Shown: positions 49,778 to 64,000 of the stretch, piece by piece
How positions within the stretch are numbered: the first letter of the stretch is position 1
How the letters are laid out: every line of letters begins with the position of its first letter
Origin: Cognatishimia sp. 1_MG-2023
GTDB taxonomy: Bacteria > Pseudomonadota > Alphaproteobacteria > Rhodobacterales > Rhodobacteraceae
DNA length: 64,000 nucleotides
Reading direction: 5' to 3'
Assembly: GCF_030548175.1 (NCBI RefSeq)
Contig: NZ_JAUORX010000012.1
Location: 1-64,000, forward strand
The notes under the pieces: model-generated
Database searches by the model: none
Told to the model about the DNA's origin: nothing
What the model saw: the letters and a program-made list of their open reading frames with translations, nothing else
Translations under genes and position numbers: made by a program

Positions 49778-50059
49778 AGTTCCCTCCAAGCTTTTCTATT
49801 TGCGCTTTTGTATCTGTATCGCGCCTATTTTGCTGAGAGAGGCCCGTCCGTCCATTTTCATTCGCCAAAGTTAGCATCAGTACTTTGAAATATGCTGCTA
49901 GAGTTTAGGCTGGTAGTGATTTTCAAGGGGAGCTCGGTGGCGTCTTTGAGAAGTGATGGTCTTCTTGTAGAGCAAAGCTTCAAATGATTTCGTATCGCGT
50001 GCTGACTCAATGTGAAGATAGAGTTTAGTGCAGATTCACCGGGTAGGTAGGAAAGTAAA

Positions 50060-50962
50060 ATGGTTAGATCTTGGGTCCAAGATAAAGACATCAAACTGTT
50101 TCGTGTATTTTTCGAACTTACGCGGGCGGGCGGTTTTCAGCAGGCTCAAGTGAGTCTGAACATCAGCCAGTCAAGTTTGAGCACCTCTATTTCCCAACTT
50201 GAAACACGTGTTGGCATGCGCTTGTGCAATCGCGGCCATGCTGGCTTTAGTCTAACTGAAGATGGCGAAAGCCTATTTTCCGAAATTTCCATCTTGTTTG
50301 CCGCAATGGAGAAATTCTCCACAAATCTGGCGAGCAAAAAGGCAGAAATCTCGGGTCAGTTGTCCATTGGTATTCTGGAAAACAGCGTAACACACCCAGA
50401 TCAACGTCTTATTCGCGCTTTGTCTGAGTTACAGGAGCTCGCACCGGGTGTTGGATTGTCGGTGTATACAGCGGGCGCATTAGAGCTGGAAATCAGGGTC
50501 TTGGATGGGCGTTTGGACGGGGCTGTTGGCCTGTTTCCACATCGCATTGACAGCTTAGAGTACCTACCGCTCTTTGAGGAGGAACACCGGCTTTATTGCT
50601 CTGTTAAACACCCGCTGGCAGACGGAAGTGTCAGTATTGAAGACCTCAAAAAGCATCCCTACGTTGGACGAGAATATGTTGATCTTATCGAGGGGCTGGA
50701 GCCACCCGAGGGCTTTGACGTTGGTGCAACAGCACGCCACATGGAAGGGTTGATTTTACTCTTAAGAACCCAAAAGTACTTTGGATACCTTCCGGATCAT
50801 ACCGCCCGTCCTTGGATCGAGCGGGGGCTACTTACTGAAATTAACGCACCCGGTACAATTAGAACCGGGAAATTTTTACTCGCGCTGCGCCGGGAAAAAC
50901 ATCGGTCGAGGCCTTTGTCGGCTCTCGTCAATCTGCTCTCACTATACCGCAACGCAGAATGA
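50060..50962 (+). CDS. LysR-family regulator
   Basis: 300-residue LysR protein, paralogue of 33470-34411 (FFELTRAGGFQQAQ, ISQSSLSTSISQLETRVG, CNRGHAGFSLTEDG). Divergent from nhaC across a 282-base gap, so it probably regulates the nhaC-ACT pair. Confidence 0.9.
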   Translation: MVRSWVQDKDIKLFRVFFELTRAGGFQQAQVSLNISQSSLSTSISQLETRVGMRLCNRGHAGFSLTEDGESLFSEISILFAAMEKFSTNLASKKAEISGQLSIGILENSVTHPDQRLIRALSELQELAPGVGLSVYTAGALELEIRVLDGRLDGAVGLFPHRIDSLEYLPLFEEEHRLYCSVKHPLADGSVSIEDLKKHPYVGREYVDLIEGLEPPEGFDVGATARHMEGLILLLRTQKYFGYLPDHTARPWIERGLLTEINAPGTIRTGKFLLALRREKHRSRPLSALVNLLSLYRNAE

Positions 50963-50973
50963 CTGCCTTAAAT

Positions 50974-50987
50974 GCCCCTAATGGGGC
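50974..50987 (+). terminator. Short hairpin after LysR gene
   Basis: GCCCC-TAAT-GGGGC followed by GCTTTC. Five-bp stem only. Confidence 0.35.
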
Positions 50988-51023
50988 GCTTTCTGAAAAT
51001 CGGGATCTCATCAAGGATGAAAA

Positions 51024-51281
51024 ATGAACAGCATCACTACCCCTGACATCTTAGGATCACTCGGCGCTGCGATTATTGTCGCCACTTACATGTTGCTGCA
51101 AATGGACCGGGTCCGCAGTGATCAAATTTGGTATTCAATTTTAAACTTTATTGGCGCGTCGCTAATTCTGTTTTCCCTTTACTTCAAATTCAATTTGTCC
51201 GCGTTCCTGATCGAGATTTTTTGGGTCTTTATTAGTCTATACGGTATCTGGAAAAAACGACGCGAGATATCACAAAGCTAA
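51024..51281 (+). CDS. Small membrane protein, CBU_0592-like
   Basis: 85-residue protein with about three hydrophobic segments (LGSLGAAIIVATYMLLQ, IWYSILNFIGASLILFSLY, FLIEIFWVFISLYGIW) ending in a basic tail KKRREISQS. This matches a widespread small inner-membrane family of unknown function. It precedes the amino-acid importer by 222 bases but is cut off from it by a hairpin, so a link is uncertain. Confidence 0.75.
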   Translation: MNSITTPDILGSLGAAIIVATYMLLQMDRVRSDQIWYSILNFIGASLILFSLYFKFNLSAFLIEIFWVFISLYGIWKKRREISQS

Positions 51282-51325
51282 ATAGTTTGGGGGATTCCCT
51301 GAGGCCATATTCTTATCGTGCGACT

Positions 51326-51359
51326 GCCGCTGCTTTGAAGGTATCTAATAAGCAGCGGC
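51326..51359 (+). terminator. Hairpin upstream of amino-acid importer
   Basis: Perfect 10-bp arms GCCGCTGCTT (51326-51335) and AAGCAGCGGC (51350-51359). Likely ends the small membrane-protein message. Confidence 0.6.
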
Positions 51360-51503
51360 CTATATTATGTTGATCACCGCTAAGTCAGGAAACGTGGCTA
51401 AGGCGCTTCCAAGATTAAATTTATCTAAACCGCACTTCTTAAATTCGAAATGCTGTTTGCCCCCATTTCAGATTAATAAACTTGAGGTAAGGGGGATAAA
51501 CGC

Positions 51504-52286
51504 TTGAAACATTCAAACGCGTTACTCAACGTGACAGATATTCATAAATCTTTCGGTTCGCTCGAAGTGCTTAAAGGCATTTCACTTGAAGCAAATGCGG
51601 GAGAGGTCGTGGCGCTACTAGGGTCTTCAGGTTCTGGGAAAAGCACTTTTCTGCGTTGCATCAATTTACTTGAAGCACCAACCGAAGGTTCGATTGCCCT
51701 AGACGGAGAAGAGCTTCTTCTTAAGCGCAAGAAAGATGGGCAGCTGCATTCCGCAGATTCCAAACAGCTGACACGCTTTAGGTCAAAAATTGGCATGGTC
51801 TTTCAAGGTTTCAACCTTTGGCCCCATTTGACTGTTTTAGAAAACGTGATCGAAGCGCCCATTCACGTCAGTGGTATCTCTAAGAAAGAAGCCATCGAAC
51901 GCGCAGAGGCATACCTCCATCGTGTAGGCATGTTCGAACGCAAAGATTACACCCCCTCCCAGTTATCCGGCGGCCAACAGCAACGGGCAGCGATTGCTCG
52001 TACTTTGGCAATGGAACCTGAGGTCATGCTATTTGACGAACCAACGTCTGCATTGGACCCAGAACTGGTAGGCGAAGTTTTGAAAGTTATGAAAGGCTTG
52101 GCTGAAGAGGGTCGAACGATGCTCGTAGTAACGCACGAGATGGGTTTTGCACGTGATGTCAGCTCTCGGGTGATTTTCCTGAATAAAGGCGAAATTGAAG
52201 TCGATAGCGCCCCTGACCCAATCTTCAAGAACCCCAATGAATACTCAGATCGTTGGGCAGAGTTTCTTTCGAACACACGCGACTAA
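51504..52286 (+). CDS. Polar amino-acid ABC ATPase, HisP/GlnQ type
   Basis: 260-residue ATPase starting at TTG with a GGGGGA site. Walker [10 protein letters not shown], signature [15 protein letters not shown], Walker [15 protein letters not shown] 15-residue insert after the Q-loop approach ([19 protein letters not shown]) is of the HisP kind. First gene of a four-gene importer with binding protein and two permeases. Confidence 0.93.
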
Positions 52287-52311
52287 AATATACCAACCTT
52301 GGGAGAGAGTT

Positions 52312-53079
52312 ATGAAAAGTGTAAAAATGGTCATCAGCGCATTGGTGCTCGCGACAGCGACAAGCGCGGCGGCAGAGGATCTTGTTATTCGGTGGGGTAC
52401 TGAAGCAGGGTACCGTCCCTTTATCTATAAAACATCTGAAGGCGAATTGACTGGCCTTGATGTCGAAATCGGCAACGCAATTTGTGAAGAGCTACAAGCA
52501 AAGTGCGAATGGGTTGAGCAAGACTGGGACGGCATTATCCCAGGCCTTCTAGGCAAGCGTTATGACGGTATTCTGTCCTCTATGACGATCACAGAAGAAC
52601 GTCGTCGTGTGATTGAATTCTCTGACCCATATTATGCAACACCTGCTGGTTTTGTTGGCAAGCTTGATATGGGACTGAACGACGACGAGACCCTTGCAGG
52701 TAAGACCATTGGTGTTCTACGTGGTAGCACCCACGCTAGCTTTATCATCAACGAGCGCCCGGATGTGACTGTACGGGAATACCCGACACAGGATGAAGTC
52801 TGGTTGGACCTTACAGCTGGTCGTATTGATGCAAGCTTTGTGAACCAAATCGCCGCTCAAGAAGGTTTCTTGGGAACTGAGAACGGCGAAGGTTTTGGTT
52901 TATTCGGTAAGTCTTACATTGATCCAGCTGTCACAGGTTCAGGCATTGGTGTCGGCTTCCGCAAGGCGGATGTTGAGCTGCGTGAAAAGGTGAACGGTGC
53001 CATCAAAGCAATTTATGAAAATGGCACGTTTAGAGCGCTCAATGAGAAGTACGTCCCGTTCTACATCGGCATGGAATAA
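52312..53079 (+). CDS. Polar amino-acid ABC substrate-binding protein (SBP family 3)
   Basis: 255 residues from the ATG at 52312 with GGGAGAG. Sec signal peptide (VKMVISALVLATATSAAA). Mature HisJ-like fold: VIRWGTEAGYRPFIYKTSEG, LTGLDVEIGNAICEEL, KRYDGILSSMTITEERR. The LTGLDVE-IG-A motif is the amino-acid-binding lobe of family 3; lysine/arginine/ornithine or an opine is likely but not decided. Confidence 0.92.
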   Translation: MKSVKMVISALVLATATSAAAEDLVIRWGTEAGYRPFIYKTSEGELTGLDVEIGNAICEELQAKCEWVEQDWDGIIPGLLGKRYDGILSSMTITEERRRVIEFSDPYYATPAGFVGKLDMGLNDDETLAGKTIGVLRGSTHASFIINERPDVTVREYPTQDEVWLDLTAGRIDASFVNQIAAQEGFLGTENGEGFGLFGKSYIDPAVTGSGIGVGFRKADVELREKVNGAIKAIYENGTFRALNEKYVPFYIGME

Positions 53080-53086
53080 TAGAACC

Positions 53087-53114
53087 GCGGATTAGGGCTG
53101 AGGCTCTAATCCGC
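53087..53114 (+). promoter_or_regulatory. Hairpin after binding-protein gene
   Basis: GCGGATTAGGGC (53087-53098) and GCTCTAATCCGC (53103-53114) form a 12-bp stem with one G-U pair and a 4-base loop, between binding-protein stop and permease start. Confidence 0.65.
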
Positions 53115-53137
53115 AAACTTTGCCGGGGAGGCAGCAC

Positions 53138-53821
53138 TTGGAAACCATGCTAGAATTTTTGCCGCTTGTTTTAAGTGGGGTCACTCTGACAATTAGCTTG
53201 GCGCTTACGTCAGTTGTCGTTGCAATTGTTTGCGGTCTTATCGGCGCAGCAATGAAGCTCTCTTCGGTAGGCATCCTACGCATTTTGGGAGGGACATATA
53301 CAACTGTTGTCCGCGGTATTCCTGATCTCGTCTTAATGCTGTTGGTGTTCTTCGGAGGTCAAATTCTAATCAATTCCATTGGCGATAAAACCGGTCTCTG
53401 GACATACGTCGAGGTTAGCCCGTTTTGGGCTGGTAGCTTATCCATCGGCTTCATTTTCGGCGCTTATATGACTGAAACCTTTCGGGGCGCCTTTTTGGCA
53501 GTGCCAAATGGCCAAATCGAAGCTGCAAAGGCTGTTGGCCTTGCTCCGCGTCGTTATCTTCTCCGCGTCGTTTGGCCACAAATGGTCCCTCACGCGCTTC
53601 CAAACTTTACAAATAACTGGCTTGTCCTGATGAAGACCACGGCGTTGGTTTCAATTATTGGCCTCCAAGATGTTGTGTACAATGCAAACCAGGCTGGGCG
53701 GACGTCTCAGGAACCGCTTACTTTTCTGGTGCTCACATTTTTTATCTTCTTGGGCCTAACCCTACTTTCAGACATCGGGCTGCGCAAAATTGGGCGTGTC
53801 TACGCCATTCGGGAGAACTAA
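53138..53821 (+). CDS. Polar amino-acid ABC permease, HisQ type
   Basis: 227 residues if started at TTG 53138 (GGGGAGG six bases upstream); an ATG at 53147 is further from the site. HisQ-like five-segment permease with docking loop QIEAAKAVGLAPRRYL near residue 130 and VVWPQMVPHALPNFTN following. Pairs with the next permease, three bases downstream. Confidence 0.91.
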   Translation: METMLEFLPLVLSGVTLTISLALTSVVVAIVCGLIGAAMKLSSVGILRILGGTYTTVVRGIPDLVLMLLVFFGGQILINSIGDKTGLWTYVEVSPFWAGSLSIGFIFGAYMTETFRGAFLAVPNGQIEAAKAVGLAPRRYLLRVVWPQMVPHALPNFTNNWLVLMKTTALVSIIGLQDVVYNANQAGRTSQEPLTFLVLTFFIFLGLTLLSDIGLRKIGRVYAIREN

Positions 53822-53824
53822 AAC

Positions 53825-54499
53825 ATGGATTTTTCTCTCATTTTCGACAACTGGGAATTGTTCCTAACAGGCCTAGGAAACACTGTCTGGTTGGTGAGTC
53901 TTGCGTTGATTATTGGCGGTATTCTGGCAGTCCCACTCGCACTAAGCCAAGCTTACAATGTTCCATATTTTGGCAAGCTATCGTTGTGGTATTCTTATGC
54001 CTTGCGCGGCACACCCCTGCTTGTCCAAGTTTACATTATTTATTACGGCCTTGGGCAGTTCGAAAGTGTACGGAATTCTGTATTTTGGGTTTTGCTAAAA
54101 GACCCCTATTTCTGCGCGCTTCTGGGTTTCTCTTTGAACAGCGCTGCATACGCGAGTGAAATTCTGCGCGGTGCAATCGTTAATTTGCCGAAGGGGTTGA
54201 TTGAAACCGCATATGCTTGCGGTATGACGCGGTGGAAAGTCATTCGTCGTATTGCTTTACCGATTGCATGTCGTAGATCGATTTTTGCCTATAGCAACGA
54301 AGTTATCTTTATGCTCCATGGGAGCGTGATCGCCTCTACAATCACAATTGTTGATTTATTGGGGGCAGGGCGTCGTCTAAACTCACAATACTACGTAACC
54401 TTTGAAGGCTTTATCACGGTCGCGTTTCTATACATGGCGATTGTCGCTGTTATCAGTTTGGCCTTCAGGCAGATCGAAAAAAGATATGCGTTAACCTAA
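53825..54499 (+). CDS. Polar amino-acid ABC permease, HisM type
   Basis: 224-residue permease with RGTPLLVQVYIIYYGLGQ and EAA-type loop LIETAYACGMTRWKVIRRIALP. HisM/ArtM-like. Last gene of the importer operon, followed by a bidirectional hairpin. Confidence 0.92.
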   Translation: MDFSLIFDNWELFLTGLGNTVWLVSLALIIGGILAVPLALSQAYNVPYFGKLSLWYSYALRGTPLLVQVYIIYYGLGQFESVRNSVFWVLLKDPYFCALLGFSLNSAAYASEILRGAIVNLPKGLIETAYACGMTRWKVIRRIALPIACRRSIFAYSNEVIFMLHGSVIASTITIVDLLGAGRRLNSQYYVTFEGFITVAFLYMAIVAVISLAFRQIEKRYALT

Positions 54500-54582
54500 C
54501 TTGCTTAACTAAAGTTGGTCCGAAAAGATGATCAATTTGATTTTGATTGAACACCTTAGCAAACCCAAGATTTTCCGAATTT

Positions 54583-54610
54583 CCTAATACGTTCATACAA
54601 GCGTATTAGG
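54583..54610. terminator. Bidirectional terminator over sulfatase stop
   Basis: Perfect 9-bp arms CCTAATACG (54583-54591) and CGTATTAGG (54602-54610), followed by ATTTTCC on the plus strand. The right arm contains the sulfatase stop codon. Confidence 0.65.
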
Positions 54611-56048
54611 ATTTTCCATATTGAACGGCTTCGCCCGGTGGCGGGGTTGCACCAAACCCCCCCTTTGACACAATAAATTCTTGTCCGCCGTGCGTCGCAA
54701 TAATTCGCGCCTGATCTTCGCGGGCATGTTGATCCACTTGCTCTGGTGTGCAGATCTGGCGCAACTCTTGTTCTAGTTCCAAGCAAATTTTGGAATAGGC
54801 GGGGTCTACCCCCAAATTGTTCAATTCATCTGGGTCAGCATACAGGTCATACAGTTCTGGGTTCATGCCCAAATAATGCACGTATTTCCAACGTCCTTTG
54901 CGGATCATAAAGGCGCCTGCGATGGCGCCCATGGCTTGGTACTCGGCAAAAACCACCCGGTCGAGATCATCTTCGGCATTGGCCATATCAACCAAAGACT
55001 GGCCAGGGCGATCTCCGATAGTTCCCGCAATACCAGCTGTTTGCAACACTGTCGGGGCCACATCAACTAGGCTGACAGGTGTACGGCAAACCTTGCCTTT
55101 TGGCACATTGGGTCCTGCAATGATGCAGGGAATACCAACGGATTCTTCAAACATATTGGACTTTCCCCATAGGTCCCGTTCACCTACTTGATCCCCATGG
55201 TCACTCACGTAGATGACCTGTGTCCGATCTTGTAGGCCGGCGTCATCCAACGCATCTAAGATCAGGCCGATGCGACTGTCGATAAACGTGACCAAGGCGT
55301 AATAGGATGCCAATGCGATGCGGGTGCGTTCTGGGGTGAAATTGTCCATCACGATGCACTCGCGCATCGCCGCATGCCACGGGTGCTCTGGATTAGGACG
55401 TGCCTTTGTCGGCATCAGTCCAGCCTCGGCATATTGATCGTAGAATTCTTGTGGGGCGATCAATGGGAAATGCGGCGCAATCATAGAGACGAATAAAACC
55501 CAAGGGTCTGTCTCATCTTGTTGAGATGTGATCCATTCCGCAGCTCGGGTGGAAATGTCACGATCGTATGACGTATAGCTGGTTTCTCCTGGGCCAATTT
55601 TTTCGGCCATGTTTCGGGATTTCCAGCGTTTGGGAAGCGGTTCTCTTACGCAGCCCAACACGTCACCAACGCCGTTTACTATGTGCATTGGGATTTGTTG
55701 AAAATCTAAACCAACAGAGTCGCTTTCATTTCGATAATGAAGTTTTCCAATCGAACCAACCGAAATTCCGGCACCTTGCAATTCATGTGCCCATGAATTG
55801 GGCGTGCCGCAATATGGCGTTGCATTATCCCAATGCCGCGTTTGGTGGCCGTATCGGCCTGTCGCAAAACTTGCACGTGAGGGCACGCAGATCGGGACGT
55901 TACAGTAGGCATCAGTAAACAATGTGCCTCGCGCTGCGAGTCGATCCAAGTTTGGTGTTTTGACAAGATGATTTCCATAACAACCCAAGACCTTACGGGT
56001 GTGTTCGTCAGTCATGATCAAAAGTTGGTTGATCGAATTTCGTGTCAT
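54606..56048 (-). CDS. Sulfatase-family hydrolase, cysteine type
   Basis: 480-residue enzyme of the sulfatase/alkaline-phosphatase superfamily. The formylglycine site is Cys54 in CVPSRASFATG, so an FGE-type maturase is needed. Metal ligands are in MTDEHTRK (residues 12-19) and VSDHGDQVGE. No signal peptide is seen, so the enzyme should act in the cytoplasm on an imported sulfate ester or, as in some relatives, a phosphonate monoester. The gap upstream holds a copy of the LysR-site motif shared with the TTT operon. Confidence 0.9.
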   Translation of the reverse strand: MTRNSINQLLIMTDEHTRKVLGCYGNHLVKTPNLDRLAARGTLFTDAYCNVPICVPSRASFATGRYGHQTRHWDNATPYCGTPNSWAHELQGAGISVGSIGKLHYRNESDSVGLDFQQIPMHIVNGVGDVLGCVREPLPKRWKSRNMAEKIGPGETSYTSYDRDISTRAAEWITSQQDETDPWVLFVSMIAPHFPLIAPQEFYDQYAEAGLMPTKARPNPEHPWHAAMRECIVMDNFTPERTRIALASYYALVTFIDSRIGLILDALDDAGLQDRTQVIYVSDHGDQVGERDLWGKSNMFEESVGIPCIIAGPNVPKGKVCRTPVSLVDVAPTVLQTAGIAGTIGDRPGQSLVDMANAEDDLDRVVFAEYQAMGAIAGAFMIRKGRWKYVHYLGMNPELYDLYADPDELNNLGVDPAYSKICLELEQELRQICTPEQVDQHAREDQARIIATHGGQEFIVSKGGFGATPPPGEAVQYGKS

Positions 56049-56112
56049 CTATGCCTCCAGATGCCGCGAATACGCAGCTAAAGGCACATTAGCTTGCGTC
56101 GATGTATTAATG

Positions 56113-56130
56113 AAAATAGAATTAATAGAT
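56113..56130. promoter_or_regulatory. Candidate LysR site upstream of sulfatase
   Basis: AAAATAGAATTAAT at 56113-56126 is the exact reverse complement of 57072-57085. It lies 65-82 bases before the sulfatase start and just past the LysR stop. Confidence 0.5.
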
Positions 56131-56157
56131 CGTAAGTTCGGAAAATCTGATGATGTG

Positions 56158-57045
56158 TTAAATTTTTTCCTCACAGATTTCCCGCAGTGCTTCAAGGTAA
56201 GCCACTGCACGTTCATCTTTGGTCGCATTTTGCGGCACATAAAAACCGGCATCAATTTCGGCGACGGGGGATAATGGGATCAATCGTCCTTGATCCAGCA
56301 ATTCAACTTCCATTGCTAAGGTATCTGTCAGCGTAAATCCCATACCACTTAGGGCCATACGGTGCGCCGCGCTGGCTGATGACACTTCGTGTGACACATT
56401 CAGATGATCACCATGTTGCATCAAGAGTCGATCAATGGATTGCCGAATAATCAGCTCACGATTCAGCGCAATATAAGGGAACTGTCGCAAATCATCGGCG
56501 CGCACTACATCTTGGCTGGCCAACGGATGTTGTTTAGACACAAAGGCGCATAACTTTGTGCGGTGCATAGACACCAGTTCAACCTGATCAACATGAATCG
56601 GAACGGTGAAAACGCCTACATCAAACCCGTCATTCACAATCCGCCGCCCTAGTTCGCGGCGCGGGTGCACATCGAGTTTAATTTGAATATCTGGTGTCTT
56701 TTCGAGCAGGCGATTGATGGCTGGGACAACAAGGCCATTCACCATGCGCGGATGGCAGATAATGCGCAACGGATAGTCAGCATTGGTTTTGAGCTGTGCA
56801 AAGACATTTGGAAATTCATTAACGGCAGAGACAACGCGAAATGCTTCGGAGTAAAACCGCTCGGCCTCGGGAGTGGGCTGCAAACTTTTGCGGTCTCTGT
56901 AGAACAGTTGGACCTTAAACTCCTCCTCCAGCAGTTGGATCAAACGACTAACCGCTGGTTGGCTTAAGTTCATCTTCTGGGAAGCGGCAATCAACGATCC
57001 CTCATCCATCACAAAAAGAAACGCGCGTAAACTTTTGAGGTTCAT
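56158..57045 (-). CDS. LysR-family regulator
   Basis: 295-residue LysR protein (LRAFLFVMDEGSLIAASQKM, SQPAVSRLIQLLEEEF; effector domain follows), of a branch often paired with TTT or Bug transporters. It sits between the sulfatase (same direction) and the divergent TTT operon. Both flanks hold the same palindromic element, so it probably controls both and itself. Confidence 0.9.
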   Translation of the reverse strand: MNLKSLRAFLFVMDEGSLIAASQKMNLSQPAVSRLIQLLEEEFKVQLFYRDRKSLQPTPEAERFYSEAFRVVSAVNEFPNVFAQLKTNADYPLRIICHPRMVNGLVVPAINRLLEKTPDIQIKLDVHPRRELGRRIVNDGFDVGVFTVPIHVDQVELVSMHRTKLCAFVSKQHPLASQDVVRADDLRQFPYIALNRELIIRQSIDRLLMQHGDHLNVSHEVSSASAAHRMALSGMGFTLTDTLAMEVELLDQGRLIPLSPVAEIDAGFYVPQNATKDERAVAYLEALREICEEKI

Positions 57046-57067
57046 CTTTGAAAATCCTGATACTGTG

Positions 57068-57085
57068 ATAGATTAATTCTATTTT
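57068..57085. promoter_or_regulatory. Candidate LysR operator, divergent LysR/TTT gap
   Basis: ATAGA-TTAAT-TCTAT (57068-57082) is a perfect palindrome with the T-N11-A layout of LysR boxes; with the following TTT it contains the 14-base element also found at 56113-56126. Confidence 0.55.
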
Positions 57086-57158
57086 TTTTATTTGTGGTTG
57101 TCGAGTAGCGTGACATCAGCAAGCGGCGAGGCTTGTGAACCTATGTTGGGAGGACACA

Positions 57159-58124
57159 ATGCATAGACGGACTTTTCTTAATACGTTTGCGGTTGCAACA
57201 GCATCGCTGTCGCTTGGTACTGCGGCTCTGGCTGATTGGAAGCCACGTCGCCCTCTAAATGTCATCGTTCCATACAGCGCGGGCGGTGGGGTTGATTCCT
57301 TTGCGCGTGCCTTTGCGGCTGCAGCAGAAAAACTGCTTCCTGTACCTGTCGTTATTGTAAATCGCCCCGGCTCTGCAGGCTTGGTTGGCGCACAAGAGGC
57401 CGCATCGGCGCGCCCAGACGGCAATACAATCATGATCACCTCTGCCGGCTCATTCCTTATGGCGTCGACTTTGCGCAAAGCAGATGTGAATCCATTCGAT
57501 AGCTTTCAAACGGTTAGCCAAATCGGCAATCTGGTACCGGGGCTCTTTGTTCCTGCGAATAGCCCATATCAAACGGCCAATGAATTAGCCGAAGATATCA
57601 AAGCCCGCCCGGGCGCATTGCGTTGGGCACATACCGGTCGCGGCAGCTTTTTGCACGTCGCGGGTCAAGGCTTTTTGAATGCCAATGACTTAGAAGTTGG
57701 CGATGTACCGTTTAAGGGTGGTGCAAATGTACGCGCCGCGATCATTGGCGAACAAGTTGATTTCGGCTTTGTCGGCGTTAACGTAGGTCGCGGCTTTGAG
57801 AGCGAAATGCGTGCATTGGCCGTGTCTTCACCTCAGCGCGATGGCATCATGAGCGAAGTACCAACTTTCGCAGAGCTCGGATTAAACTTCCTTGATGTCA
57901 GCTCACCAATCGTAACCTTCGCACCAAACGGTGTGGATGCAGAAATCGTTTCTGGTATCGAAGCCTTGTTAGCTCAAGTTACGCAGACTGAAGAATTCGC
58001 GGAACTTATGTTGGTGAAGGGCAACGCACCTGCTTATCTAAACGGTGCAGATGCCGAAGCAAAACTACAAGCAATGTTAGAAGCAGCTGGTCCAATTTTG
58101 GAAAATATTTCTGAATCTAAATAA
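57159..58124 (+). CDS. TTT-system substrate-binding protein (Bug/TctC family)
   Basis: 321 residues from the ATG at 57159 with GGGAGGA. Short leader HRRTFLNTFAVATASLSLG with twin arginine, cleavage near ALA. The Bug fold is shown by RPLNVIVPYSAGGGVDSFAR, VVIVNRPGSAGLVGAQEAA and GNLVPGLFVPANSPYQT. It binds carboxylates or related solutes for a TctAB-type secondary transporter; tctB follows but is broken and tctA is not in the window. Confidence 0.92.
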   Translation: MHRRTFLNTFAVATASLSLGTAALADWKPRRPLNVIVPYSAGGGVDSFARAFAAAAEKLLPVPVVIVNRPGSAGLVGAQEAASARPDGNTIMITSAGSFLMASTLRKADVNPFDSFQTVSQIGNLVPGLFVPANSPYQTANELAEDIKARPGALRWAHTGRGSFLHVAGQGFLNANDLEVGDVPFKGGANVRAAIIGEQVDFGFVGVNVGRGFESEMRALAVSSPQRDGIMSEVPTFAELGLNFLDVSSPIVTFAPNGVDAEIVSGIEALLAQVTQTEEFAELMLVKGNAPAYLNGADAEAKLQAMLEAAGPILENISESK

Positions 58125-58130
58125 GTCTAT

Positions 58131-58159
58131 TGTGGCATCCCGAAAGATGGGGTGCCACA
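58131..58159 (+). promoter_or_regulatory. Hairpin after Bug binding-protein gene
   Basis: TGTGGCATCCC (58131-58141) and GGGGTGCCACA (58149-58159), 11-bp stem with one G-U pair and a 7-base loop. Same position as hairpins at 9472, 14650 and 53087. Confidence 0.6.
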
Positions 58160-58202
58160 CATATACCCTCCCTTACATTTTATCCCTTAAGGAGCCAGGA
58201 TC

Positions 58203-58544
58203 ATGCCGCATCTTGATCTGAAATACTCGTCTGACATCGAGATCGACGCCATTGCATTTTTCGAAGAAGTCGAAGCAACGTTGCAGGCTCACGACGATGA
58301 CACCGGCCCATGCAAATGCCGGGCTTACCCCACCGAAATTTACCGCTATTCTCAATGTGTGGTCGAAATTCGCATGTTCGCAAAACGCGAGCGCAATGCC
58401 CAGTTCACCGCCGATTTGGTTGCCGCCATCGAAGCGTTGCTGGTCAAACATCTGAGCCAAGATTGCAGCATCTCTGTTATGCTGACCTTCAGCCCGCCGG
58501 CATATATAACGCGAAAGTTCCATGTAAGCGAAAAGTCTGCATAA
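58203..58544 (+). CDS. 5-carboxymethyl-2-hydroxymuconate isomerase-like (tautomerase) protein
   Basis: 113-residue protein starting Met-Pro (MPHLDLKYSSDI), as in the CHMI/tautomerase superfamily, where the exposed Pro1 is the catalytic base. Later strands YRYSQCVVEIRMFAKRERN and the trimer segment SISVMLTFSPPAYITRK fit the family. True CHMI works in homoprotocatechuate breakdown; the rest of that pathway is not here. It lies between the Bug protein and tctB, hence probably acts on the imported compound. Confidence 0.78.
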   Translation: MPHLDLKYSSDIEIDAIAFFEEVEATLQAHDDDTGPCKCRAYPTEIYRYSQCVVEIRMFAKRERNAQFTADLVAAIEALLVKHLSQDCSISVMLTFSPPAYITRKFHVSEKSA

Positions 58545-58573
58545 GGCACGTCGTTCAGGAAGGGAGCAAACTG

Positions 58574-58879
58574 ATGAGAACTCTAAATGCCGCAGTGCTT
58601 GTCGGTTTAGTGCTTACCCTGTTCGGTGCCGCAGCCATAGTTGCTACGCTGCAAATCCCTCTTACATCCGAAGGGGGCAGGGGCGCGCAAGTCTTCCCTG
58701 CGATAGGGTCCATTTCTATCGTGATATTAGGTTTGTTAGAGACCTTGCGCGGGCTTCATCTGCCACGATTGGCACCAAACGTGGGCCAAAGGCTTTGTCT
58801 TTCAACAAACCACCCATCATCCGCACTGCAGCCATGGTGGTCGACATTTCTTTACCGTCCGCTTGAACCGCAAAATTAG
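58574..58879 (+). pseudogene. tctB: tctB 5' remnant running into antisense aceE
   Basis: The ATG at 58574 with an AGGGAG site begins about 58 residues typical of a TctB N-terminus (AAVLVGLVLTLFGAAAIVA, VFPAIGSISIVILGLLETLRG). After about 58,750 the frame is the antisense of aceE and ends at 58879, giving 101 residues in total. TctB normally has about 150 residues and four membrane segments, so this copy is broken. Confidence 0.8.
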
Positions 58880-60335
58880 CATATTTTTCAAATGCAGGAC
58901 GCTCAGGCATCGGGCGATCAGCCACTTTTGCACGCTTAGGTAGGTAGCCTCCCAATGCGGCGCGTCGTTCTTGCAAGTATTTGATTTCAGCGCTGTCTTC
59001 TTTTGGCTGATAGAACTCAAGGTTCTCAACCGCTTTGTCGTCAAGCGGCAGATCAAAGCGATCACGGAAGGCTAGCAAGGCGTCAACATCCAGCTTTTTC
59101 GCCTGGTGTGCGATCATGCGAGATTCGCCTGCACCACCCATGCCAAAGCCTTTCTTGGTTTTTGCCAAGATGACTGTCGGTTTCCCTTTGTGCGCTTTTG
59201 CAGCAGCAAAGGCTGCATAAACTTTACGCAGATCATGACCACCACGTTTCAGCTGATGAATTTCCTCATCGCTCATGTGGGCAACCAATGCAGCTGTTGC
59301 TGGGTCGGCGTCAAAGAACTTGGAACGGTTGTAGTCGCCGTCTTTTGAGCCAAGGTTTTGGTATTCGCCATCAACGGTTTCTGCGAAACGGCGCAGCAGG
59401 ACGTTATCAGTGTCGCGGGCAAAAATGTTGTCCCACTCAGAGCCCCAAAGCACTTTGATGACGTTCCAGCCGGCACCAACAAACAAGGATTCTAGTTCTT
59501 GAATGATCTGACCATTACCACGCACAGGCCCGTCGAGACGTTGCAAGTTGCAGTTCACGATAAAGGTCAGGTTGTCCAAACCTTCACGGGCAGCGAGGGT
59601 CAATGCACCGATAGATTCCGGCTCGTCCATTTCACCATCACCAAAGACACCCCAAACGTGGCGCTCTTGTGTGTCGGCCAAATCGCGCGCGTGTAGATAA
59701 CGCATAAAGCGGGCCTGATAGACTGCGGACATTGGGCCAATACCCATTGAACCTGTAGGCAGCTGCCAGAAGTCATCCATCAACCATGGGTGAGGATAAG
59801 AGCATAGACCTTTGCCCGGCACTTCTTGACGGTAATTTGCCAGGTCAGTTTCAGTCAAGCGACCCTCAAGCATCGCACGGGCATAAACGCCTGGCGCAGA
59901 GTGAGGCTGGAAGTAAACAAGGTCACCGCCGAAATCTGGAGTCTTTGCACGGAAGAAGTGGTTGAAACCAACTTCGAAGATTTCAGCAACAGAAGCATAA
60001 GACGCAATGTGCCCACCCAATTCGCCATAGGCTTTATTGGCACGAACAACCATGGCCAACGCATTCCAACGCATAATAGAGGTGATGCGTTCTTCTAGCT
60101 CAAGATCACCCGGGTATGCCGGTTGCTGAGCCAAAGGAATTGAGTTGCGATAATCAGAATAGGGCAAACCAGCAGTGGTGACACCCAAACGACGCGCGCG
60201 ATCTTGTAATGTTCTAAGAACATATTGCGCACGATCTACGCCTGTTTCGCGTGTCATTGCCTCTAGGGCGTCGACCCATTCGGAGGTTTCAATAGGGTCG
60301 ATATCGCTTGGAATAATTGATTCTGGCAGGGTCAT
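58716..60335 (-). pseudogene. aceE: aceE, homodimeric pyruvate dehydrogenase E1, truncated
   Basis: 539-residue open frame of which the first 528 or so match AceE (full length about 885): IASYASVAEIFEVGFNHFFRAK, GDGEMDEPESIGALTLAAREGLDN with the ThDP-binding GDGEMDEP...N motif, and GPRLVPIVADEAR. It then breaks into ARSLTNLISR and stops, inside antisense tctB. The pyrimidine-binding and C-terminal domains are absent, so it cannot form an active E1. The start has AGGAGA and the gene is divergent from an Lrp gene. Confidence 0.88.
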
Positions 60336-60392
60336 ATACTTCTCCTCGTGTGCGCAGAAGATAGCAGCGACCTATTGGTTAATGGTTGTTAT

Positions 60393-60463
60393 TTGTGTTA
60401 AATTACGCACCACAGTTAGCGCATCTTGCTAAAGAAACTTGAAGCAAGCGCAAATTGTGTTAA
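60393..60463. promoter_or_regulatory. Repeated TTGTGTTAA elements in aceE/lrp gap
   Basis: TTGTGTTAA occurs at 60393-60401 and 60455-60463, each followed within ten bases by TTACGC. Start-to-start spacing is 62 bases, close to six helical turns. Candidate Lrp sites. Confidence 0.4.
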
Positions 60464-60473
60464 CAACTTACGC

Positions 60474-60938
60474 ATGACACATCATTTAGACGATACCGAT
60501 ATTAAGATTCTAAAGGCGCTTCAACGCGACGCACGGCAGTCCCATCAACAGGTGGGGGACACTGTTGGATTGTCACCGTCACCTTGCTCGCGTCGCATTA
60601 GATTAATGGAACAAAATGGTATCATCGAAGGATACACAGCAAAAGTAGATTCTCGCCGTATTGGATTTGGCCTGAACGTTTTTGTCTCGGTTAAGCTCGA
60701 TACACAAATTGACAGCCGCTTGGTGAACTTCGAACGAGAAATCGCCCGGTTCCCCGAGGTTGTGGACTGTTGGCTGATGACAGGAAACCGCGACTACTTG
60801 ATGCGCGTCGTCGTTACTGACCTTGAAGAATTTGAACGCTTTTTGACCAGCCACTTGACCAAGACCATTGGTGTTGCATCCATTGAATCTTCTATTCCTG
60901 TGCGTCGGGTCAAAGATGCCGGTGCCAGAGTTTCTTAA
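60474..60938 (+). CDS. Lrp/AsnC-family regulator
   Basis: 154 residues from the ATG at 60474; the frame upstream starts at TTG and is rejected. Winged-helix domain residues about 5-60 (LDDTDIKILKALQRDARQSHQQV, GLSPSPCSRRIRLME), then the RAM ligand domain (VDCWLMTGNRDYLMRVVV). Divergent from aceE, and pyruvate-linked regulation of aceE by such proteins is known in other bacteria, so aceE is its probable target. Confidence 0.9.
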   Translation: MTHHLDDTDIKILKALQRDARQSHQQVGDTVGLSPSPCSRRIRLMEQNGIIEGYTAKVDSRRIGFGLNVFVSVKLDTQIDSRLVNFEREIARFPEVVDCWLMTGNRDYLMRVVVTDLEEFERFLTSHLTKTIGVASIESSIPVRRVKDAGARVS

Positions 60939-60998
60939 TACTTTGATCGCATCGCCCAAAGTATGCCCCTAATACACCGCGGCTCTTAGAGTGACACA

Positions 60999-61039
60999 TT
61001 AAGGGTTGCTGAATACGTTCAAAATTCAGCAACCCTTAA
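60999..61039. terminator. Strong bidirectional terminator, lrp/hisC
   Basis: Perfect 16-bp arms TTAAGGGTTGCTGAAT (60999-61014) and ATTCAGCAACCCTTAA (61024-61039), 9-base loop, between convergent genes. Confidence 0.85.
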
Positions 61040-61081
61040 TCCAATTACATCCAAACCCTACAACCACAGTAGTGGCTTCAG

Positions 61082-62185
61082 TTATGCAACGCTATCCAGC
61101 GCCGCAAGAAACGCATCTGTGTGTTCTGGTCGACCAATCGACACCCGGAGCCATCCAAGATAGGGCTCTTCAAACCATCCTTTGGTTAGCACACCCCGGC
61201 GCCTTAAACGCTCGGCAAGCTCATTGCCGTTTTCTTTGCAATCAAAGAACACGAAATTCGTTTGAGAGGGCGCAACGGTATAACCGCGCTTAGTCAGCTC
61301 ATCTTGCAAACGTTCGCGCTCTAACCTGATGTTTTCGACACACATTGCCAGATGGCCCACATCCTCAAGTGCGGCTGCCGCCGCAGCAACCGCCACCGCA
61401 TTCACGGCAAACGGAGAGCGGATTTTCATCAATGCGCCACTAATGTCATCATGCGAACAAACAGCAAATCCAATGCGTGACCCTGCCAGCCCATAGGCCT
61501 TTGAAAAGGTCCGCAAAGAAATCCACGGCAGATCCGTTTTACTGAGCTTCTCAATTGCATCAAACCGCAACGATGGCTCAATAAAGTCCACATAGGCTTC
61601 ATCAAAAACAAACAACGTTTCTGGTGTCAGCGCCTGAACGATGCGGTCAAAATCAGCTTCTGTGATCGCAGTTCCGGCCGGGTTGTTCGGCGAAGCGAAC
61701 ATCAACACTTTCGGTTTTGCGCTTAATGCCTTTTCGACATCATCAATTGGGAACAACCAATCCGCCGGATATAGAATTTTTTCGGCAGTCGCCCCGCAGA
61801 CTTCAGCACCTGTCTCATGTGGGCCAAAGCTTGGGCATGTTGTGACAACATGCTCGCCCGGCGAAAGAACCGCTGTAAAGATCAGCGCAATCAGATCTTC
61901 CGACCCGTTACCCGTCACAACTTGCTCCGCTTTGACGCCCAGCTTTTCACTAATCGCCAACCGCAACGCCGAGGTTGCAGCATCAGGGTAGGAGGCCAGA
62001 TTTGAACTTACAGATTCAGCAGCCTTAATCGCAGCTGGACTTGGCCCATATGGATTTTCGTTACTATCCAGCTTTGCCAGACAGTCCACGCCATAAGCCT
62101 CCCGGAAACGGTCCGCGGCGATTCCAGCATTATAAGCCGTCTGCGCGATGACTTCTTCACGGAACAGTTTCGAATAGCCCACCAT
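61082..62185 (-). CDS. hisC: Histidinol-phosphate aminotransferase-type enzyme
   Basis: 367-residue fold-type I PLP enzyme. HisC-family motifs: DSNENPYGPSPAAIKA near residue 39, VVTGNGSEDLI near residue 90, FASPNNPAGTAI near residue 162, and the PLP lysine in SLRTFSKAYGLAGSRIGF. It transfers an amino group between histidinol phosphate and 2-oxoglutarate; some members act on aromatic amino acids. It stands alone between two Lrp genes, not in a his operon, so an aromatic-aminotransferase role is possible. Confidence 0.88.
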   Translation of the reverse strand: MVGYSKLFREEVIAQTAYNAGIAADRFREAYGVDCLAKLDSNENPYGPSPAAIKAAESVSSNLASYPDAATSALRLAISEKLGVKAEQVVTGNGSEDLIALIFTAVLSPGEHVVTTCPSFGPHETGAEVCGATAEKILYPADWLFPIDDVEKALSAKPKVLMFASPNNPAGTAITEADFDRIVQALTPETLFVFDEAYVDFIEPSLRFDAIEKLSKTDLPWISLRTFSKAYGLAGSRIGFAVCSHDDISGALMKIRSPFAVNAVAVAAAAAALEDVGHLAMCVENIRLERERLQDELTKRGYTVAPSQTNFVFFDCKENGNELAERLRRRGVLTKGWFEEPYLGWLRVSIGRPEHTDAFLAALDSVA

Positions 62186-62396: not shown

Positions 62397-62882
62397 TTAT
62401 GTCCGATTTTCGATATCCGGGAACACATGTGCATTTTTAACCACACCATAAACAAAGCTCGTATCAATGGAGCGAATATGCCCAATCGTATGCAAACGTT
62501 CCCGCACGAAACGCTCGTAATCTTCAAGGTCCGCCGAAAGGACACGCAATAGGTAATCAGCACCGCCAGTCATCACATAGCATTCCAAAATCTCAGGAAT
62601 GTTGTTCACCTCTTCTTCGAATTGGCCAACGACATCACCAGTGTGACCATTCAGCGTGATCCGAACAAAAACGGTGATCGGCAGCCCATAGGCCGTTGCA
62701 TCAACATCCACATTATAACCGCGAATGACACCTTCCTTTTCAAGGATGCGTAATCGGCGCAGACACGGCGACGGAGACAGGTTCACGCTCTCAGCGAGTT
62801 CCAGATTCGTCATGCGCCCATTTTTTTGCAGGGCTCTGATCATCTTGCGATCAGTTGTGTCTAATTTAGGTAATTTTGGCAT
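62397..62882 (-). CDS. Lrp/AsnC-family regulator
   Basis: 161-residue Lrp-type protein (LDTTDRKMIRALQKNGRMTNLELA, NLSPSPCLRRLRILEKEGV; RAM domain ECYVMTGGADYLLRVL). It is divergent from megL with a 100-base gap containing phased repeats; Lrp-type proteins commonly control amino-acid lyases next to them, so it is probably the megL regulator. Confidence 0.91.
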   Translation of the reverse strand: MPKLPKLDTTDRKMIRALQKNGRMTNLELAESVNLSPSPCLRRLRILEKEGVIRGYNVDVDATAYGLPITVFVRITLNGHTGDVVGQFEEEVNNIPEILECYVMTGGADYLLRVLSADLEDYERFVRERLHTIGHIRSIDTSFVYGVVKNAHVFPDIENRT

Positions 62883-62918: not shown

Positions 62919-62982
62919 GCAACTAAATGCCTGTCGATCTACCCTAATTTACTCATAGGAGATGATGAAGGGGAGAATAAAG

Positions 62983-64000
62983 ATGACGAAGGAAACTGAC
63001 GGCTTTTCCACACGCGCAATCCACCACGGATACGATGCGAAAGATCATCAAGGCTCTCTAAACCCACCTGTCTATATGACATCTACCTTTACCTTTGAAA
63101 CCGCAGAATCCGGCGGTGCCATGTTCGCAGGTGAACAGGCAGGTCATTTTTACAGCCGCATCTCTAACCCAACGCTCGATCAGCTTGAACAGCGCATTGC
63201 AAATCTCGAAGGCGCAGAAGCCGGCCTTGCAACCGCATCAGGCATGGGCGCGATCAGCTCTGTCTTCTGGACCTTCGTCAAAGCAGGCGACGAGGTTATC
63301 ATCGACAAAACGCTCTATGGCTGCACCTTTGCATTCCTGAGCCACGGCCTCACAAAGTTCGATGTAACCGTAAAGCCCGTCGATATGACGGACCCCAAAA
63401 ACGTCCAAGAGGCGATCACGGATCGCACCAAGGTCGTTTATTTCGAAACGCCGGCCAACCCCAACAATCGCCTCGTGGATATCACAGCCATTTCTGAGAT
63501 TGCTCACAAAGTTGGCGCGCGCGTGGTCGTCGATAACACCTATGCCACACCGGTGCTGACCCGCCCTATCGAACATGGCGCAGACATCGTCTTGCACTCA
63601 GCTACGAAATACCTCGGGGGTCACGGTGATCTGATCGCCGGCCTTGTCGTTGGGTCCGCCGAAGACATGATGCAAGTCCGCCTCATTGGCGTGAAAGACA
63701 TGACTGGTGCGGTTATGGCCCCGCTCACAGCCATGCTTATCCTACGAGGCCTTAAAACCCTTGAGCTACGCGTTGAGCGCCATTGCCAATCAGCCCGCAA
63801 AATTGCCGAAGCCTTGCAGGCCCACCCGGCCGTTTTGAACGTCGCCTATCCAGGCCTCGATAGCTTCCCCCAAGCAGAGCTAGCCCAACGGCAAATGGCA
63901 AACTTCGGGGGCATGGTCCCGTTTGAAGTAAAAGGCGGGAAAGCCGGCGGCATCGCCATGATGAACCGCCTCAAACTCATTCAGCGGGCCGTGAGCCTGG
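62983..64000 (+). CDS. megL: Methionine gamma-lyase (3' end cut off by window)
   Basis: Open from the ATG at 62983 (GGGGAG site) to the window end, 339 residues of about 400. Cys/Met-metabolism PLP enzyme: YSRISNPTLDQLEQRIANLEGAE near residue 50, PLP lysine Lys209 (HSATKYLGGHGD) and Cys114 in TLYGCTFAFLSHG. This cysteine distinguishes methionine gamma-lyase from cystathionine enzymes, which makes the assignment firm. It splits methionine to methanethiol, 2-oxobutyrate and ammonia. Sense-strand third positions are rich in C, unlike the plus-strand genes in the first half of the window. Confidence 0.93.
   Translation, partial: MTKETDGFSTRAIHHGYDAKDHQGSLNPPVYMTSTFTFETAESGGAMFAGEQAGHFYSRISNPTLDQLEQRIANLEGAEAGLATASGMGAISSVFWTFVKAGDEVIIDKTLYGCTFAFLSHGLTKFDVTVKPVDMTDPKNVQEAITDRTKVVYFETPANPNNRLVDITAISEIAHKVGARVVVDNTYATPVLTRPIEHGADIVLHSATKYLGGHGDLIAGLVVGSAEDMMQVRLIGVKDMTGAVMAPLTAMLILRGLKTLELRVERHCQSARKIAEALQAHPAVLNVAYPGLDSFPQAELAQRQMANFGGMVPFEVKGGKAGGIAMMNRLKLIQRAVSL

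Follow-up and report, generated by a model that had tools for sequence, protein, structure and literature searches.

The mde operon of Pseudomonas putida reportedly has the gene order mdeR-mdeA-mdeB, the original study being said to be that of Inoue in 1997; its gene names mdeA and mdeB are used for the relatives of these genes. The Lrp-type regulator of this system is described as divergent from its target (PMC8707732), an arrangement that the locus analysed here shares. A literature search on mdeB together with methionine gamma-lyase returned no paper. The substrate of the mdeB product is indicated by annotation only: the family model points to alpha-ketoglutarate and the gene symbol to methionine degradation.

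Full-length mdeB genes are carried by three roseobacter plasmids (Mameliella alba pKUB257, Phaeobacter inhibens pDOK1-1-2 and Ponticoccus alexandrii p-SCP4), on which they are annotated as 'alpha-ketoglutarate dehydrogenase'. There, mdeB is followed by an E2 gene in all three cases and by lpd in two, and a Lrp/AsnC regulator gene lies next to it in divergent orientation. The window (the whole stretch of DNA analysed, 64,000 bases) holds an E1 gene that is 79.5-81.8% identical to these over its retained part and has the same divergent neighbour, but it stops at codon 529 and is accompanied by neither E2 nor lpd. Roseobacter sp. SK209-2-6 (locus L029) offers a different likeness. It shares with the contig of the window a run of four genes in the same order: Lrp regulator, methionine gamma-lyase (78% identical), second lyase (79%) and OsmC-like protein (82%). 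In SK209-2-6, an intact mdeB-E2-lpd set follows the OsmC-like gene, whereas the window has its mdeB remnant on the opposite side of the four genes, next to a different Lrp gene.

The second gene at the junction belongs to a tripartite transporter operon, for which six related stretches (L115-L120) provide the comparison. All six have the order LysR / tctC-tctB-tctA, with the LysR gene divergent from tctC and tctA following tctB; tctC and tctB are side by side within about 90 bases, with no open reading frame (ORF) between them. Their TctB frames span 152-166 aa, and their tctA genes are 72-81% identical to a common reference tctA. The window resembles them in TctC (50-60% identical), LysR (35-44%) and the TctB N-terminus (up to 47%); it differs in having an extra ORF, a cut tctB and no tctA. 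A search with the TctC of the window at E 1e-60 found a match in 5 of 197 other family genomes.

The tctB and mdeB truncations

On the tct side, a LysR-type regulator gene (56158-57045, minus strand; PF03466 and PF00126) diverges from tctC (57135-58124, plus strand; PF03401, E 1.6e-36), which encodes the substrate-binding protein of the transporter. A 113-aa ORF follows (58203-58544, plus strand); it has no Pfam hit and is absent from the related operons. Next comes tctB, of which about the first 60 codons are kept (58574-58753, plus strand). Over residues 2-60 this stub is 47% identical to the 163-aa TctB of L116 (tblastn E 5e-14), which is itself encoded behind a TctC with about 56% identity to that of the window. 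The tblastn match extends to 58,759 with L116 and to 58,750 with a second TctB, L115; we place the end of TctB similarity at about 58,753-58,756, beyond which the frame continues through the antisense strand of mdeB. Taken by itself, the 58-aa stub gives no Pfam hit, and no full-length TctB (PF07331) stands between tctC and an adjoining tctA here. A short tctB of another kind occurs in L116 itself (L116:4875-6012), where a duplicated tctC has behind it no more than the first 27 codons of tctB, which are identical to those of the full copy at a distance of 4.6 kb; this second stub is the product of a partial duplication.

On the opposite strand, the mdeB-type E1 remnant occupies 58716-60335 (minus strand, 539 aa). 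Its homologous part covers 58749-60335 (529 codons), and its last 10 codons are antisense tctB. In an alignment with 10 full-length relatives, the match extends as far as ...VPIVADEAR, at residue 529 of 539 and base 58,749. All 10 continue with TFGM, whereas in the window the frame carries on for ten residues of unrelated sequence before a stop; the conservation of the sequence past the cut is judged from this alignment. In the numbering of E. coli AceE (1l8a), the cut falls after R524 of 886 and deprives the enzyme of its second part. The lost part includes Glu571, which we take to have a catalytic role. Intact length is the rule among related E1 loci: in 77 of 79 loci, counted from the best 80 of 572 relatives, the frame is at least 878 aa long. 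The two short exceptions are L084 (508 aa, cut by a contig end) and L081 (792 aa).

Both truncations are thus present in the sequence, tail to tail, where the preliminary description had placed them (about 58,745-58,754). Its estimate that TctB ends near codon 58 agrees with the roughly 60 codons found, and, where it noted the expected tctA and aceF as missing on either side, no tctA lies beside tctB and no E2 on the tctB side of the junction. The junction spans 58749-58756: with E1 homology ending at 58,749, the two genes can both lay claim to 5-8 bases at the most (58,749-58,753 or 58,749-58,756). This microhomology is drawn from one TctB relative, L116, and its last bases are without support from L115.

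The junction itself was not found in any other genome searched. A 701-base query spanning it matched none of 59 other relatives (0/59). A 301-base DNA query matched 2 of 294 other family genomes, both solely from 58,750 onward, that is, in the E1 half, which leaves the junction at 0/294. A repeat scan of 56,000-61,500 detected seven direct families and eight inverted pairs, none of them at the junction; some way off, on either side of it, lie the arms of two imperfect inverted pairs (71% and 74%), which look fortuitous. The window contains no tRNA and no Rfam match.

The E1 paralogue and its replicon

By profile scores and tree position, the E1 gene is an mdeB-type paralogue and not the housekeeping aceE. 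The window protein scores 933 bits against TIGR03186 (AKGDH_not_PDH) and 843 against the aceE model (TIGR00759), whereas the corresponding part of the AceE encoded on contig C14 of the same genome gives the reverse order (740 and 850). Since 933 bits lies under the curated TIGR03186 cut-off of 1408 and homology extends no further than residue 529 of about 890, the gene is to be read as a remnant and not as a working member of that family. In an E1 tree of 27 rows trimmed to the retained part, 18 mdeB and 9 AceE rows are split with 100/100 support, and the window gene falls in the mdeB clade. The tree used 17 of the 79 mdeB loci, and its AceE rows are C14 (L145) together with eight of the 14 loci from L004 to L017.

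The housekeeping pyruvate dehydrogenase is encoded elsewhere. Contig C14 carries consecutive frames for aceE (894 aa), an aceF-like gene (417 aa) and an lpd-like gene (580 aa), and its AceE is 54-55% identical to the window E1. An aceE at 54% to the window query is present in all eight same-genus genomes. The best match to the window E1 in any of 59 other relatives is 55%, so none of them carries a close relative of this gene. A broken housekeeping aceE is ruled out by the complete aceE-aceF-lpd set on C14, the TIGR scores and the tree; with the C14 operon complete, the window E1 is neither the only nor the main homodimeric pyruvate dehydrogenase E1 (TIGR00759) of the genome. The preliminary description had taken the gene for AceE ending near residue 528 of about 885 and proposed a search for a second intact E1: the position is borne out, the name has to change to mdeB-like, and the second E1 exists.

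The window makes up bases 1-64,000 of contig C4, which is 80,605 bases long. The ends of C4 overlap exactly over 77 bases (1-77 and C4:80529-80605), a sequence that occurs nowhere else in the genome. Beyond the window, C4 carries genes for a Rep_3 initiator, ParA, ParB and a ParD-like antitoxin, the last with a ParE-like neighbour below cut-off. Rep3_N/Rep3_C and ParB score above their cut-offs, and the ParA-type ATPase is present. Because the exact end overlap coincides with Rep_3, ParA and ParB genes, it is very likely that C4 is a closed plasmid, some 80.5 kb in size. The two sides of the junction are not set apart in character. G+C content changes without a marked step, from 48.5% in 50,000-58,749 to 51.2% in the 8 kb that follow, and frames read by eye include transport and amino-acid catabolism genes on both sides. 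The division once drawn between an accessory left and a housekeeping right arm gives way to a single plasmid-like contig.

To the right of the mdeB remnant, the divergent Lrp/AsnC regulator (60426-60938, plus strand; PF01037) is listed from its first TTG, and its true start may lie further in; besides the three mdeB plasmids, 8 of the 11 closest E1 loci have such an adjacent divergent gene. A HisC-like aminotransferase gene (61082-62185, minus strand) above the TIGR01141 cut-off lies between this regulator and a second Lrp/AsnC gene. Where the Lrp and HisC-like genes converge, a perfect inverted repeat of 17 bases encloses a 9-base loop (60998-61040) and is probably a terminator. The second Lrp/AsnC regulator (62397-62882, minus strand; 55% identical to the one beside mdeA in L029) is divergent from the gene of an mdeA-like methionine gamma-lyase (62962-64000, plus strand, continuing to C4:64185), which lies 2.6 kb from the mdeB remnant. 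The best models for this lyase are those of methionine gamma-lyase; its score is below cut-off because just part of the protein was scored. The shared order with SK209-2-6 covers C4:62397-66078, where the second lyase is a Cys/Met lyase.

A probable single deletion and its alternatives

The missing parts were sought throughout the 20-contig genome. With the mdeB C-terminal half as query, only AceE was found, at 55%. A plasmid E2 as query retrieved AceF at 54% and weaker E2s, and no dedicated E2; the best E2 in the genome is thus the AceF beside aceE. The two TctA proteins of the genome are just 32-33% identical to the expected one. The TctA on contig C20 was considered as a moved tctA and rejected on this identity and on the 250-aa ORF of its own in front. 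The TctB C-terminal part had no match in the whole genome, in a search without a positive control in this genome, and a PF07331 profile search found one TctB and missed the stub of the window itself, so that small TctB fragments could escape both searches.

We infer that the junction is, with high probability, the scar of a single deletion on the plasmid of about 80.5 kb, in which the 3' parts of both genes and the interval between them were lost. Before it, two convergent operons would have faced each other: one on the plus strand, tctC-(113-aa ORF)-tctB-tctA, next to its divergent LysR gene, the other on the minus strand, mdeB-E2-(lpd), next to its divergent Lrp gene. End points within tctB and mdeB would have removed both 3' parts and everything between. 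This reading is supported by the homology of both genes ending within the same few bases, and by the missing gene ends and all partners falling exactly between the two cut points. The E2 partner is expected from the three plasmids. Counting against this reading, a strict rule detects E2 directly after mdeB in only 31 and lpd in 24 of the 79 E1 loci (from the best 80 of 572 relatives), with E2 in 7 of the 11 closest. No relative was found in which complete tctB-tctA and mdeB operons are adjacent, so the gene order before the event is a reconstruction. Gene lengths in relatives would give a minimum loss of about 4.2 kb (without lpd) to 5.9 kb. With no more than 5-8 bases common to the two end points, homologous recombination would be less likely than end joining or replication slippage. 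The deletion is probably recent, to judge from a terminal E1 branch (0.16) no longer than those of intact neighbours (L024, 0.11; L026, 0.17) and from the lack of a stop in 529 codons.

Three other histories have to be weighed against a single deletion. One arm might have arrived by horizontal transfer already truncated, or have broken on insertion, so that the full operons were never adjacent. In line with this, neither arm is found as a block in relatives: a near-mode plasmid search matched 6 of 72,556 records, each over 8-9% of the query and none sharing the region, and 7 of the 8 other same-genus genomes match the right arm by DNA only in stretches of 52-715 bases. However, such an acquisition requires the DNA to have broken twice at the same site, the genes adjoining the junction include no recognised transposase or integrase (part of the contig's genes was scanned), and the junction has no repeat; we regard it as unlikely. 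A misjoin of two unlinked pieces of DNA at about 58,750 during assembly is unlikely. The junction is known here from the assembly alone, being absent from all other genomes searched (0/59; 0/294), but the contig closes on itself through a 77-base overlap unique in the genome, and the 8 or fewer bases common to both sides are too short for an overlap-based misjoin. The contig contains no N, the junction region occurs once in the genome, none of the missing parts was found on another contig, and genome completeness is 99.62 with a contamination of 0.01.

An inversion or translocation, in which the other halves of mdeB and tctB would be joined together or moved elsewhere, could account for the opposite orientation of the two genes; a deletion between convergent operons would leave just this opposite orientation, and neither the mdeB C-terminal half nor tctA nor the TctB C-terminal part was found elsewhere in the genome. 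We consider this history very improbable. Among the causes listed in the preliminary description, a deletion is therefore favoured, and the joined missing halves by which an inversion was to be recognised did not turn up.

A single deletion would have left an E1 without its catalytic second half and its dedicated E2, and a TctB without most of its length and its TctA partner. Both truncated products are almost certainly non-functional, as predicted from what their frames retain. That the 539-residue ThDP-domain protein, with the E1 N-terminus retained, is stable, docks on the remaining pyruvate dehydrogenase E2 and modulates that complex, the deletion having been selected rather than neutral, is very improbable.

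The junction has the look of ordinary gene decay: a deletion on a catabolic plasmid has left its scar in a transporter gene and in a paralogue of the mdeB type. It thereby corrects a more worrying reading: the broken E1 gene is not that of central metabolism, and a chimeric assembly is unlikely. By itself the finding is of little weight, being one more deletion on a catabolic plasmid. For the methionine-degradation cluster of this plasmid, it means that the lyase was kept and the neighbouring 2-oxo acid dehydrogenase lost; judging from the gene names, the handling of 2-oxobutyrate would then fall to the cell's other enzymes.
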